From the NCBI GenBank assembly GCA_905221605.1, contig CAJNDS010000016.1, forward strand, positions 143,832-207,831: a stretch of DNA of 64,000 bases. The letters are read 5' to 3'. The translations under genes were made by a program, and so were the position numbers. This document shows positions 16,156 through 63,705 of the stretch, piece by piece (position 1 is the stretch's first letter; each line of letters opens with the position of its first letter). The notes under the pieces were generated by a model that worked only from the letters and a program-made list of their open reading frames with translations, was not told where the DNA came from and did no database searches. Source of the DNA: Symbiodinium natans (lineage: Eukaryota; Sar; Dinophyceae; Suessiales; Symbiodiniaceae).

Positions 16156-16310
16156 CTAAGCCTGAACCCCAAACCCCCAAACCCCCAACCCCCCAAACCC
16201 CCGAACCCCCAAACCCCCAAACCCCCAAACCCCCAAACCCCCGAACCCCCAAACCCCCAAACCCCCAAACCCCCAAACCCCCGAACCCCCAAGCCCCCAA
16301 GCCCCAAGCT
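16156..16310 (-). repeat. CCCCCAAA array, about 15 copies
   Basis: Units of 8 nt (ACCCCCAA), a telomere-like variant with periodic CCCCCGAA units every fourth or fifth position, so a higher-order repeat. Bracketed by a duplicated segment (16120-16155 and 16311-16342). Confidence 0.85.
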
Positions 16311-21774: not shown

Positions 21775-23651
21775 TGGCTGGGCACTGGAGGATGCACAGG
21801 CAGCCGGGGAGTACCAGGCCGGGGTTTAGGGTTTAGGGCTTAGGGCTTAGGGCTTTGGGTTTAGGGGTTAGGGCTTAGGGCGTAGGGCTTAGGGCTTAGG
21901 GCTTAGGGCTTGGGGCTTAGGGCTTAGGGCTTAGGGCTTAGGGCTTAGGTTTCAAGGGTCCTGTTTTTTCCCCACCCTCGGCGCAAGGCGCTTAAATTTC
22001 AACGAAGCTCCTCTCCTGGGCCTGTTCCCCATATACTAACAGGCCTTAATAGGAAATATAGTACACACTCTTATAATCCCAATTAAGAACAGTTAGTATT
22101 AGGGGGAACATCCCAACGTATCCCACTCCAGAGTTTTTTAAGACACTTCCTGGAGTGCCCAACCCCAAAGTATCCCCAGAAAGTCTCTGGAGTGCCCAAC
22201 CCCAGAGTACCCCCAATAATTGGAGTGCCCAGAAGTATCCCCACAGAATTCCTGGACTGCCCGACCCCAGAGTGTCCCTGGAGTGCCCAACCCAAGAGTG
22301 AGCTCGCACCTTGCAAGGCAGGGGTCGAGATGTTCGAAGTAAACCCTAAACCCTAAACCCTAAACCCTAAACCCTAAACAATAGCTTTCTTGCGTTTTTG
22401 AGCTCGGTTTGCAGACCAGGGTCTTGGTGGGCCAATGGTACTCGTTACCCTTTTTTGGCTCTAGGTTCCATTATAAAGTAATCTGCCCAAAAAAAGGGTG
22501 CCCTTATTATAATATGGTTACTGGGATACCAAGGGGCTGTTATGCAGTTGTAAAGAAACCACAGGGGGCTTTCTCTTCTGGAGGGGGGGGGGGGGGTTGG
22601 TGGCATTTGGAGCTTGTGATGGTGTGTGTTGTAACCATCTTGCAAGATAGGTTACCCTAAGCCCTGAACCCTAAACCCTGGTGTTTGAGTTCTTTGCGCC
22701 TTGTATTCCTCTTTGCCTTCTGGCCTTCAACAGGTAGGGCCAGGTAGGGTTTGGGGTTTAGGCTTTAGCAATTGAGGGTTTTGGGGTTTAGGGTTTTGGG
22801 GGTTAGTTATGAGTGTCAGGGTTTCAGTGTGGCGCTGCCTAAAAACCAGATCTCCAAGCCCCACCCCTGGCCACCCTAACCCCTAATCTCAAAAAAACCC
22901 TAAACCCTAAACCCTAAACCCTAAACCCTAAACCCTAAACCCTAAACCCTAAACCCTAAACCCTAAACCCTAAACCCTAAACCCTAAACCCTAAACAGCA
23001 GCTCTGAGCCTCAACATATGCCACCAGCAAGCAGGAAGTGCTCGTGGAGCCCCTTGCGGTGACAAAGCCCTCCCTGTCGGACGACAGCACCATCGCGGAC
23101 CAGGTGGCATCTCACTGAAAATTTAGGGTTTAGGGTTTAGGGTTTCGGGTTTAGGGTTTAGGGTTTAGGGTTAGTAGTTCGTAGAGTAGGTGACCTTCTC
23201 ACCTTTTTGGGGTAATATAATCCCCTTATCGTCACAAAGGTTATCCTCCCTAGGTACTGGACAACTAGGCATGAAGGTGTACTTTCTGGTTTGGTGTTTA
23301 GGGTTTAGGATTTAGGGTTCAAGGATTGGGGGGGGGGGGGGGGGGGGGGTGGTTGGGGTGTTTGGGCTACCTTTTCGGGTACAGGCTTATCGAAACTTGA
23401 GTTTGGGAGACCCAAGCAACAGCTTGTAAGCTTAAGGTGTACGGCTCAGAGATTAGGACCTCGATTTGTGGCTGGGTTTGGGTTTAGGGTTAGTTTTTTC
23501 CAGGTTTGCAAGGGTTTAGGGTTTAGGGCTTCTGGGAGTTTTCGAGAGCCAGTAAATCCTGAGGCACTGAAACCCTCAACAGTCAACCAACAATGAAAAG
23601 GCTCAGATTTTGGGCAGACGATTGCAGCTACAGCTCCGGAGACTCTCATAG
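21775..23651 (+). CDS. Unrecognised exons ending in a basic helix and stop
   Basis: Three exons in coherent phase: 21775-21817 (GWALEDAQAAGEYQ, donor GC), 23009-23103 (KQEVLVEPLAVTKPSLSDDS, donor GT) and 23583-23651 (EKAQILGRRLQLQLRRLS, TAG at 23649-23651). Donor phase 0 at 23103 matches the phase-0 start at 23583. The 23009 exon follows directly on a 14-copy CCCTAAA array whose last unit lies next to the acceptor region. The protein end is a Gln/Leu/Arg-rich helix. Function unknown. Confidence 0.45.
21824..21955 (+). repeat. CTTAGGG variant array, about 14 copies
   Basis: GGGCTTA units predominate, a homogenised single-base variant. It lies only 92 bp from the C-rich array at 21640-21732, in inverted orientation; exon 21775-21817 sits between them. 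Confidence 0.85.
22024..22116. mobile_element. Foldback element family B
   Basis: GTTCCCCATATACTAACAGG pairs with CAGTTAGTATTAGGGGGAAC. A tandem GGAGTGCCC repeat follows at about 22130. Confidence 0.75.
22130..22310. repeat. Minisatellite with GGAGTGCCCAACCCCAGAGT units
   Basis: Five diverged copies of a 30-40 nt unit containing GGAGTGCCC and CCAGAGTATCCCC, directly after a family B foldback element. Confidence 0.8.
22418..22542. mobile_element. Foldback element family E
   Basis: GGTCTTGGTGGGCCAATGGT pairs with TGGTTACTGGGATACCAAGG. Confidence 0.75.
22898..22996 (-). repeat. CCCTAAA array, 14 copies
   Basis: Perfect units; the acceptor of exon 23009 lies within 12 nt of its end. Confidence 0.95.
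23174..23274. mobile_element. Foldback element family G, uninterrupted
   Basis: Family G: AGTTCGTAGAGTAGGTGACC, a CCTTTTTGGGGTAATATAAT core, and GGTACTGGACAACTAGGC at the right. The left terminus abuts a TTTAGGG array. Confidence 0.65.
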
Positions 23652-29550: not shown

Positions 29551-30195
29551 TGCCCCAAGCCTGGCCCCGAAACGAAGCTAGCCCAAGCTATTTGGGTTTA
29601 GGATTTATGGTTTAGGGTTTGGGGTGTAGGGTTTACGATATTAGGGGGTCAGCATTACATGGTGGTTTACGACATTAGGCGGTACCTTACATAGGTTAGG
29701 GGGTGCCTTATTGGGGTACTTATTTTATTGAGATATTATTTTAGGGATCTCCTCATTTTTCGTAAACCCTGATTTAGGGTTGAATTGGGACCCTATTTCC
29801 CTACACATTACTAGTAAGTAACCCCCCCTCCATTTAGTAGGTATAAGCCCTGTAAAACTGTAGGTAAATTTAGGGTCCCAGGCAATTCGTGTTTGTAGGG
29901 TGGATTTAGCGTCTTGTGTTGCCCACGCACATGCGTGGACGCCGCGCGAAGCTCTCAAATCTAGCCGGTGAGAGGGACTCCAAGCCAAATACCCGCTGCC
30001 TGCGGCCCAGTGAACCCGAAGGGGCGCTAAGTTTTAGAAGGGTTTAGGGTTTAGGGTTTAGGGTTTAGGGTTTAGGGTTTAGAGTTTAGGGTTTCAGTTT
30101 AGAGGCTTTCGAGATTGTGGCTTCCTCGCCAGAAGCCCTAGAACCCTAACTGGAGCTTCTGTTTCTGCTGAAGCTCTGTTGTTGCCATGGGTCTT

Positions 30196-30356
30196 AGTAG
30201 TAGAGTAGATAACCTTTTTGGGGTTTAGAGTTTAGGGTTTAGGGCTTCGGGCTTAGGGTTTAGGGTTTAAGGTTGGAACCTTTTTGGGGTAGAATGATCC
30301 CAGTAAATTCCCAAAGGTTAAGCTTTAGATCCCCTGGGTTACTGGACAACTAAGGG
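30196..30356. mobile_element. Foldback element family G split by a telomere-like insert with a 14-bp duplication
   Basis: Compared with the copies at 23174 and 33968, this one has 52 bp of TTTAGGG-like repeats (30225-30276) inserted in the core. AACCTTTTTGGGGT is present on both sides, at 30211-30224 and 30277-30290. The right end GGTTACTGGACAACTAAGGG is intact. Confidence 0.85.
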
Positions 30357-30714
30357 GTGGTCTCATGCTAATGAGTCTAAGGGTAGTTTCATGGGCCCCC
30401 CAATTATGGTCCCTTACCTTCTTTACAGGCTTGTGAAATATGGGCCCTTGGGTTTTAGAGGGGCATATAAGAGGGTCCATATTTACGGGTCCATATGAAG
30501 GGATGTACCCCTAAACCCTAAACCCTAAACCCTCAACCTGAGTGCGAAGCCCGAGACTCCCCAGACTCTAACCCCGAACCCTTCGAGCCCTAAGCCCTAA
30601 CCCCAGACCCGAAGCCGCCTTGAAACTCTACTTCGGATGTGGAGCCCGAGCAACTTTTAAACTGTAATCCGAGAAGCCCTGGATGCCCTAACTATGACAT
30701 CTCTTTCTGTTCAG

Positions 30715-33967: not shown

Positions 33968-34073
33968 CCTTAGTAGTAGAGTAGGTAACCTTCAACCTTT
34001 TTTGGGGTAGTATAATCCCCTTATAATCCCAAAGGTTAACCTTTATTTCCCTCAGGTTACTGGACAACTAAGT
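33968..34073. mobile_element. Foldback element family G, uninterrupted
   Basis: TTAGTAGTAGAGTAGGTAAC, core TTTTGGGGTAGTATAATCCC, end GGTTACTGGACAACTAAG. The best reference for the interrupted copy. Confidence 0.7.
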
Positions 34074-34986: not shown

Positions 34987-35400
34987 TTTAGGGTTTAGGG
35001 GGTTTAGGGGGTTTAGCCGGGTTTAGCCGGGGGTTTAGGGGGTTTAGGGGGTTTAGCCGGGGGTTTAGCCGGGGGTTTAGCCGGGGGTTTAGCCGGGGGT
35101 TTAGCCGGGGGTTTAGCCAGGGGTTTAGCCGGGGGTTTAGCCGGGGGTTTAGCCGGGGGTTTAGCCGGGAGTTTAGCCGGGGGTTTAGCCGGGGGTTTAG
35201 CCGGGGGTTTAGCCGGGGGTTTAGCCGGGGGTTTAGGGGGTTTAGGGGGTTTAGGGGGTTTAGGGGGTTTAGGGGGTTTTGGGGGGTTTTGGGGGGTTTT
35301 GGGGGGTTTGGGGGGTTTGGGGGGTTTAGGGGGTTTAGGGGTGTAGGGTTTAGGGTTTAGGGTATAGGGTTTAGGGTTTAGGGTCTGGGGGCTTAAGGTC
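34987..35400 (+). repeat. GGGTTTAGCCGG minisatellite grading into GGGGTTTA and TTTAGGG
   Basis: The core (35017-35235) has about 17 GCCGGGGGTTTA units of 12 nt. Both sides grade into GGGGGTTTA and then into TTTAGGG, so the 12-mer appears derived from the telomere-like unit. The translated Lys-Pro-Pro-Ala frame on the minus strand is an artefact of it. Confidence 0.9.
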
Positions 35401-36892: not shown

Positions 36893-37047
36893 GGGTCGTT
36901 GTAGTAAGTCGCACCGCTAAGCTGAAAGCCTACGCCCTACGCCCGGACGCTGGTAGCCTGCACTGTGCGGAAAACTTGTCTCTGCACCCGGTCGAAGGGG
37001 TTCAGGCTTTAGGGTTTAGGGCCGGGTTCAGGTTTTAGGGATTTTGA

Positions 37048-37190
37048 AAGCCCTAAAACCCTAAAACCCTAAAACCCTAAAACCCTAAAACCCTAAAACC
37101 CTAAAACCCTAAAACCCTAAAACCCTAAAACCCTAAAACCCTAAAACCCTAAAACCCTAAACTCTAAACTCTAAACCCTAAACCCTAAAG
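37048..37190 (-). repeat. CCCTAAAA octamer array, about 13 copies
   Basis: Uniform octamers followed by two CTCTAAA and two CCCTAAA units, ending 15 nt before exon 37207. Confidence 0.92.
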
Positions 37191-53993: not shown

Positions 53994-54212
53994 TAAACCC
54001 TAAACCCTAAACCCTAAACCCTAAACCCTAAACCCTAAACCCTAAACCCTAAACCCTAAACCCTAAACCCTAAACCCTAAACCCTAAACCCTAAACCCTA
54101 AACCCTAAACCCTAAACCCTAAACCCTAAACCCTAAACCCTAAACCCTAAACCCTAAACCCTAAACCCTAAACCCTAAACCCTAAACCCTAAACCCTAAA
54201 CCCTAAACCCTC
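53994..54212 (-). repeat. CCCTAAA array, 31 copies (longest in the window)
   Basis: Perfect heptamers, in inverted orientation to the 53835-53892 array: TTTAGGG, 100 bp spacer, CCCTAAA. Confidence 0.97.
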
Positions 54213-62523: not shown

Positions 62524-63705
62524 ATGCGAGTTCAAGCTGATGGACTGGCACAAGTAACTCGGACATTCCAGACTGGCGCCACGTTGGCCTATGTGAACCC
62601 GGGGAATTTGCGGGTCCCTAGAGGCGTAGCATTCAATGTTGCGCCCTACTCTTACAGAGAGTCAGAGGGACCCGTCATCCCGTGGTGGCTTCACTCAGAG
62701 AAGGCACTGAGCTGTTTACAACCATTGTAGGGAGTACGGCAAGCTCCCTGCGAAACACAGTCGGGCAAGTATTGGAGTCCAACAGCGCAAGCGGACCGGA
62801 AGTTGGCGAGTTGAACGTGATGTTGGCTGGCTCTTCAAAAAGCCAAGCGTGCATGGCAGGCTCGCTTTCGCGGATATTCAGGTCTGCTGTGGCACAAGAC
62901 TTGTACAGGCACATGGGCTTGACAGCACCAGCGAAAGCTGCTACATCTCCAAACAGATCCAATGTACTCGTCGTGAACCCACGCTACTACAAAGCTGTAA
63001 AAGCTGCCTTCAGCCACAAGAGCACCTTGGCCCTTGACATTGATTTATCGGTGGAGGAAGCTGTGGCGCTTGCTGATTTGGTGTGCATGCCAGTGGAGTT
63101 CGATCAACAGCCTTGGCTTCCCAATGCGCCCAACACAATGGTGCATGGCGTAAATGTTGCTGGCAGTTTACAACTGCACTTGGACAGCTTCAATGGTGCT
63201 GCGAACGGGGAGGCCACGTTGCCAGCTGAAATGAGAACGCTTGGGTACACCGGCCCTCCTGTGGCTGGAGGAGGGAATGTACCCTTGAACACGCCTGGAC
63301 ATCCGGTTCCTGCCCTGCAAGCTTGGTCTAACAATGCTGGTAATCCAATTATGATCATCATAAACAAGGCCCTGCAGGAGCGAATCTCGATGACAACCGG
63401 ACAGGCGACATGGGTCGGAACCGGCAACGCCAACTTCAACATCGAAACTGCACGGCTCCTCACTTTGACCCAGGATATAGCAAAATGCACTGGTAGTGTC
63501 GCCACGCTACGTTGGCCTACCAGGCCCCGCAGAACGGGTCAACTTCTTGGCCTCGCTCTACCAGTTCATGGTCACTGGTGTAGGGGTAGCTGCAACCCTG
63601 CAGAATAGAATTTGCTACAGCCGAAGAACAAACACGGACGCAGCCCCAGCTTCCATTTGCTGGTATCATATTCTGGTGTTGCTGTTTCAGCGTGGCGTTT
63701 TTTGA
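62524..63705 (+). pseudogene. Frameshifted intronless coding remnant of unknown, possibly capsid-like, origin
   Basis: Two long frames cover almost 1.1 kb without an intron, unlike every other gene here. Frame 1 (62524-62730) contains NPGNLRVPRGVAFNVAPYSY. Coding character moves to the next frame near 62685 (62682-63608: GPEVGELNVMLAGSS, NPRYYKAVKAAF, NAPNTMVHGVNVAGSLQLHL, NAGNPIMIIINKALQERIS). It moves again near 63500 (YVGLPGPAERVNFLASLYQF). After 63600 all frames decay. At least two single-base shifts are needed, so it is broken or contains sequencing errors. The Gly/Asn/Pro-rich, strand-rich composition is reminiscent of RNA-virus coat proteins integrated in protist genomes, but no diagnostic motif is present. 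A processed host gene is equally possible. It begins directly after a degenerate CCCTAAA array. Confidence 0.45.

Follow-up and report, generated by a model that had tools for sequence, protein, structure and literature searches.

A telomere-like array within a MITE of a dinoflagellate genome, and the joins of similar arrays in sister copies of the element

Introduction

Expansion of internal telomeric repeats, as studied in yeast, is said to be the growth of an existing tract and not a gain at a new site. Interstitial telomeric loci have been counted in four mammals (244, 250, 83 and 79 loci), and the accessible text of the same study classes the changes at insertion sites: among 130 rodent loci 50% show a deletion, 23% no change and 4.6% a duplication, and among 25 primate loci these classes make up 52%, 16% and 16% (PMC2246262). 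Telomerase-RNA sequence copied next to an array, as in rodents, is regarded as diagnostic where it occurs (PMC2246262). For 66 loci of the horse, the part of the report available gives 30% deletion, 17% no change and 4.5% duplication, and describes a staggered break with duplication (PMC7215372). The telomere repeat of dinoflagellates is TTTAGGG, according to the sections consulted of two papers (PMC11508785, PMC11453091). No report of abundant interstitial TTTAGGG arrays in dinoflagellates was found in the accessible text of the literature searched (including PMC6410037 and PMC9498494), a body of texts that omits most subscription papers.

We analysed a telomere-like array in a stretch of 64 kb (the window). 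The original prediction had placed TTTAGGG-like units in a foldback element between two copies of a 14-mer, regarded as a flanking duplication, and had proposed a staggered break extended in register by telomerase. The locus is an interstitial telomeric array within a MITE. The explanation of its flanks proved to be different, and sister copies of the element made it possible to study the joins of many such arrays.

Results

The array-bearing copy lies at 30193-30354 on the forward strand and measures 162 bp instead of about 103 bp, the consensus being drawn from 33 near-full copies. It is bordered by the 4-bp target-site duplication GGGT, on the left at 30189-30192 and on the right, where it matches the left one, at 30355-30358. 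As predicted, the 14-mer AACCTTTTTGGGGT is present exactly at 30211-30224 and at 30277-30290, with 52 bp between the two, and there is no third exact match anywhere in the 64-kb window. The TTTAGGG-like units between the 14-mers were also confirmed, TRF and a 7-state scan giving the same bounds for the array (30217-30274, forward strand). This array of about 58 bp starts inside the first 14-mer and reads TTTGGGG TTTAGAG TTTAGGG TTTAGGG CTTCGGG CTTAGGG TTTAGGG TTTAAGG TT. Upstream, the native heptamer AACCTTT (30211-30217, forward strand) stands at the 18-bp distance from the start of the element that empty copies also show, and its last T is common to the array as called. Downstream, GG (30275-30276, forward strand), either extra bases or part of the array, separates the array from the native core of the element, AACCTTTTTGGGGT (30277-30290, forward strand).

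The window contains two other copies of the family, both on the forward strand, which had been described as having the core once and no array. The single core was found in both, with 1 mismatch in the second copy (23173-23269) and 1 extra T in the third (33969-34072), which is empty, 104 bp long and bordered by TTTC on both sides. The absence of arrays did not hold at the second copy: it has no internal array, but a 51-bp array (23122-23172) abuts its 5' end and another lies at 23288-23319.

Searches were extended to the assembly (759 Mb, 2543 contigs). A sequence which we take to be the dinoflagellate spliced leader had 205 exact copies (reversed control, 0), and the host was therefore taken to be a dinoflagellate; in the window, the spliced-leader pattern was not found with up to 2 mismatches. 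The RNA-binding domain of TERT (PF12009) had 1 match (E 1.5e-18, G000:C1024:674960-675301), in an open frame of 582 aa, and none in the 14 control genomes. On the window itself, Pfam gave 0 families for 4 ORFs, Rfam 0 matches at the gathering threshold, and ARAGORN 0. One open frame of 328 aa (62622-63608), which has no Pfam match, retrieved in a protein search only itself and one protein, with 58% identity over 49%.

The inverted ends and the fixed length of 4 bp of the target duplication show that the element is a MITE. Among 52 hits, 33 near-full copies, of which two contain arrays, yield as family consensus a foldback of 103 bp whose ends read C[CT]TAGTAGT.. and ..ACAACTA[AG]G. Beyond the ends, 18 of 34 copies show an exact 4-bp match, vs 0.8 in shuffles; matches of 2, 3, 5 and 6 bp were seen in 3, 2, 1 and 0 copies, where 2.4, 0.5, 0.1 and 0.02 were expected. 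The core AACCTTTTTGGGGT has 937 exact matches in the assembly (reversed control, 4). We read 90 of these, and 68 were element copies by a simple two-sided test; the remaining 22 were partial copies, other repeats, masked or non-element, one of them being the second core of the window copy. The usual form of the element reads GTAACCTTT-AACCTTTTTGGGG and the consensus GTAACCTTT-AACCTTTTTGGGGT, so that AACCTTT is natively doubled. Genome-wide, the double-heptamer form GTAGRTAACCTTTAACCTTTTTGGGG has 350 exact matches and the collapsed form GTAGRTAACCTTTTTGGGG only 3, namely the window copy and two empty copies (L166, L167). The element also carries a telomere-like sequence of its own, TTTTTGGGG.

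Eight places had two cores 20-50 bp apart: in six the 5' half is duplicated in tandem and there is no array (L031, L032, L035-L038), one is another repeat (L034) and one is a compound tandem of core and array (L033). Tandem duplication of the 5' half without a telomere-like array was also seen in L008, and among these seven copies it is in some several-fold. In L033, near offset 1500, the unit of the higher-order tandem is the element core plus a telomere-like array, and the series closes with the 3' half of the element. In L031, L101, L129 and L138, and similarly in L106, an alternative 5' end, ..GGGGACTTGCTGTGCACACGTCGCGCTTT, replaces the usual one, which suggests a second element type having the same core.

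The native doubling of the heptamer changes the interpretation of the 14-bp repeat. The predicted duplication was not borne out by comparison with empty copies, which already have AACCTTT twice in tandem: in the window copy, the first 14-mer combines the native AACCTTT with TTTGGGG, the unit that opens the array. With the heptamer natively double and an array unit supplying the rest, the 14-bp repeat is no target duplication but an illusion, to which the MITE contributes its own sequence and the array one unit; the array of about 58 bp entered between two native heptamers. For identity over 14 bp, one A-to-G change in the first array unit is enough, and among non-canonical first complete units TTTGGGG is the most frequent, with 14 window arrays, and it accounts for 30 of 1002 units overall. 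Another copy (L088) likewise carries its array between the two heptamers, with the start CCTTT|AGGG, and a further one (L098) presents the same illusion, with TTTGGGG on each side of its array. Among the 68 element copies, AACCTTT precedes the core exactly in 33, with at most 1 mismatch in 58 and with at most 2 mismatches in 62; most copies thus carry the AACCTTT half of both segments. The whole 14-mer behaves otherwise: of the 90 core matches read, none but the window copy showed another exact core within 130 bp.

In the window, flanking repeats of at least 6 bp were found at 5 of 156 arrays (of at least 20 bp) vs about 1.3 expected; one of these arrays is that of the MITE copy and, by eye, two others lie within larger tandem repeats. 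Elsewhere, a candidate for a true duplication adjoins the C-oriented array of L042, where two copies of the 15-bp segment CACCTTTRGTTCCCC are separated by a single telomeric unit.

Arrays are not confined to one site of the element. Patterns anchored in the 5' half retrieved G-oriented arrays at 38 places and C-oriented ones at 17 (raw numbers, 61 and 26); those anchored in the 3' half gave 33 C-oriented and 18 G-oriented places (raw numbers, 49 and 30), reversed controls being 0 throughout. By eye, 5 of the 38 G-oriented places of the 5' half (L069, L075, L078, L093, L106) may be chance occurrences of GTAGAGTAGG beside an array; they were kept in n=38. In a sample drawn without regard to arrays, 7 of the 68 element copies carried one between positions -38 and +66 relative to the core: the window copy, L026, L042, L051, L056, L144, and L148, where it is in the 5' flank only. 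Within the family, arrays sit at many element positions and in both orientations. At L092, a spliced-leader-like relic, TTTTGGCTCAAG, lies just behind an array and ahead of an ATG, as though a gene began after it.

Joins were studied in 56 filled copies, comprising 36 of the 38 G-oriented places of the 5' half (all except those in C2391 and C733, L070-L073), the 17 C-oriented ones, the window copy, L026 and L056, and the empty form of each site was read from sister MITE copies, not from orthologous loci. In this three-segment analysis, 8 of the 56 copies failed two-sided alignment, and 7 of the 48 aligned were dropped as misassigned after the alignments were viewed (L060, L097, L101, L103, L105, L106, L124). 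In the remaining 41 copies, array length had a median of 51 bp (range 19-108). Element bases were lost at the joins in 26 of the 41 (at least 10 bp in 13 copies, 1-9 bp in 13) and not lost in 15, of which 10 repeat 1-4 bp, a score that cannot be separated from the unchanged state if the bases fit either flank, and 5 repeat at least 5 bp (L067, L110, L100, L107, L098), at least one of these being ambiguous and the larger scores including, by eye, some array bases. Flanking repeats, predicted for the window copy, are a minority in the family, and the changes at the joins are of the end-joining type. The losses at 26 of 41 joins would be compatible with a one-step gain of the arrays. Six filled copies kept both ends and the exact 4-bp target duplication (the window copy, which is L011, and L061, L063, L095, L107, L113).

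In-register bases at the joins were compared with an expectation of random position and phase, the two-segment analysis being uniform on matched strings and leaving anchor bases uncounted. At primed joins of the 5' half, the mean was 2.34 bases vs 0.89 expected (n=38, P<0.0001), and 2.08 vs 0.91 without the AGTAGG|T group (n=25); at primed joins of the 3' half it was 1.67 vs 0.95 (n=33, P=0.0037). Distal joins gave 1.12 vs 0.74 in the 5' half (n=17, P=0.11) and 1.39 vs 0.78 in the 3' half (n=18, P=0.037). In the three-segment set, which overlaps the two-segment set and hence is not independent of it, the values were 2.22 vs 0.91 for G-left primed joins (n=18, P=0.0001), 1.28 vs 0.80 for G-right distal joins (n=25, P=0.036) and 1.06 vs 0.77 for C-left distal joins (n=16, P=0.19), and C-right primed joins were at chance (1.00 vs 0.85, n=16, P=0.34). 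In-register bases thus exceed chance at most primed joins. The in-register continuation first noticed in the window copy, which alone is uninformative, stands as a family-wide feature of the 5' half.

The primed-minus-distal excess was 0.62 (P=0.037), or 0.42 without the AGTAGG|T group (P=0.13), an asymmetry that is only suggestive. As for orientation, the primed side was at the anchor in 71 places and the distal side in 35 (P=0.0006); without the AGTAGG|T group the ratio was 58:35 (P=0.022). G-strand 3' ends stopped after GGG, GGGT or GGGTT in 154 of 238 perfect tracts of at least 21 bp, 3/7 being expected, and such tracts started at A, G or G in 158 of 278 cases. In the window together with 28 loci picked without regard to arrays, these phases accounted for 54 of 93 stops and 59 of 115 starts; taken separately, the window and the 28 loci gave P=0.32 and 0.14 for the stop-phase bias. 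In tests of stops and starts, single subsets gave P values of 0.09 to 0.39, none significant, and the pooled stricter set 0.03 and 0.02. The primed-distal contrast and the phase bias are not decisive.

The TTTAGGG dimer TTTAGGGTTTAGGG occurs 1,788,098 + 1,787,600 times in the 759 Mb, overlaps counted (reversed control, 257 + 280). The total of 3.58 million corresponds to 4.71 per kb, and since the window has 4.66 per kb it is typical in this respect. By extrapolation from the window (106 arrays for 298 dimers), the genome would hold about 1.27 million arrays, counted as tracts of at least 2 exact units; 34 of the 106 window tracts have at least 4 exact units. In all, 250 arrays were detected in the window, where 9130 of 64000 bp are array-like, vs 1 array in one mononucleotide shuffle. 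In 28 other loci, chosen by the MITE core, 18.4% of 83.6 kb is array-like and there are 2.68 arrays per kb; arrays are common outside the MITE as well. The longest pure CCCTAAA tract of the window is 210 bp long (53998-54207). Variant units, 8 and 12 bp long and amplified locally, were also observed (35007-35236, 16167-16305, 37047-37189), as if arrays later diverge and re-amplify.

Discussion

For the window copy, we infer a break, telomerase as the enzyme, end-joining and the following order of events, a sequence of MITE insertion, break, telomeric extension and rejoining that we consider rather probable. The 103-bp MITE would have inserted at the site with duplication of GGGT, and a break between its two AACCTTT heptamers would have come later. 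Three bases of the 3' end ...AACCTTT are in register with TTTAGGG, and this end would have gained telomeric repeats, most likely via telomerase; the extended end would then have rejoined the other side with almost no loss, leaving GG. Subsequent base changes may have blurred the units, and with TTTGGGG as first unit the apparent 14-bp repeat would have appeared. In the family as a whole, the join, orientation and phase data, together with the encoded TERT-like domain, speak for priming by telomerase, to which capture of telomeric DNA is the chief alternative. The class of mechanism originally proposed, a break extended by telomerase, thus survives at the family level, without the 14-bp duplication at the window copy. 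Several points count against the explanation we propose: distal joins also have some in-register excess, so that the primed-distal contrast is weak; C-oriented primed joins of the three-segment set are at chance; the stop-phase bias is smaller in the window and the 28 loci; the empty sites are those of sister copies; and, as the MITE contains TTTTTGGGG, in-register joins are favoured by its composition.

Capture of pre-made telomeric DNA, in which a double-stranded telomere fragment or template switching into telomeric DNA would patch the break via short homology on either side, is in our opinion unlikely. It would explain why distal ends also have an in-register excess (3' half and G-right joins), why filler bases are present at L094 and L107, and why C-oriented primed joins of the three-segment set are at chance, but it is moderately opposed by the bigger in-register excess on the side where a 3' end would prime, by the preference of orientation for that side and by the non-uniform stop phase. 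Growth in place, by slippage or unequal exchange from seeds in the element (TTTTTGGGG, AACCTTT), seems improbable: the element does have a seed and the family does expand, as the internal tandem duplications at 6 of the 8 two-core places attest, but the positions and orientations of the arrays are too many, and arrays are too frequent outside the element, for this scheme to fit easily. Slippage from the TTTTTGGGG core as sole cause was rejected, because the loss of element bases at 26 of 41 joins is beyond slippage alone.

A staggered break in a single-core ancestor, with a 14-bp fill-in duplication and in-register extension by telomerase, was the original prediction and now appears very improbable. 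This route would need an ancestor lacking one heptamer, a form seen in the two collapsed empty copies vs 350 double matches; furthermore, the spacing between the element start and the first heptamer is the native one, and a single array unit accounts for what remains of the first 14-mer. Besides these two copies, the prediction can claim the exact 14-bp identity, repeats at L067, L110, L100 and L107 with scores of 12-18 bp (some look shorter by eye), and the event of the same type described in the accessible part of the horse report (PMC7215372). Least credible of all is that the array was already in the MITE at transposition, several copies sharing one array event: filled copies can have intact ends and target duplications, but in a comparison by eye rather than by full alignment no two viewed filled copies share both joins and flanks, the internal repeats of L033 aside.

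It is the genome-wide process, more than the single copy, that holds the interest. As the MITE family numbers several hundred copies at the least and its empty form is clear, one genome offers many events that appear independent; the statistics of the joins, their orientation and the stop phase thereby become measurable, and telomerase vs captured telomere DNA as the source of internal arrays becomes directly testable. The process may explain a sizeable part of the repeats of this genome. Dinoflagellate chromosomes are unusual and permanently condensed. We advance only tentatively the idea that healing by telomeric repeats followed by rejoining might be a routine form of repair in this dinoflagellate, with more than 1 million arrays, 14-18% of sampled sequence, and MITEs as its readable record.

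The element itself resembles MITEs and foldback elements in that it is short, has no coding capacity seen, and has inverted ends (C[CT]TAGT.. / ..ACTA[AG]G) and a 4-bp target duplication. It can be compared, on abundance alone, with dinoflagellate introners, which are also abundant short elements (Roy et al., 2023, as quoted in PMC11453091). In yeast, interstitial telomeric repeats are reported to expand (Aksenova et al., 2015); there, too, telomeric repeats can change length at internal sites. The array resembles the insertions of primates, rodents and the horse as a gain of telomeric sequence at a site with a known empty form, here that of sister copies and not of orthologues. As in mammals, joins show loss, no change or occasional duplication, and in-register bases are found at the 3' end of the break; unlike in mammals, the unit is TTTAGGG, the host is a dinoflagellate and the empty sites come from sister MITE copies. 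Numbers also differ, the arrays extrapolated here being about 1.3 million against 79-250 mammalian loci, a comparison that is not like for like, since at least 2 exact units were required here and at least 4 units in the horse study, as far as its accessible text states. Repair of breaks by telomeric repeats is known in mammals; its scale here is unusual.
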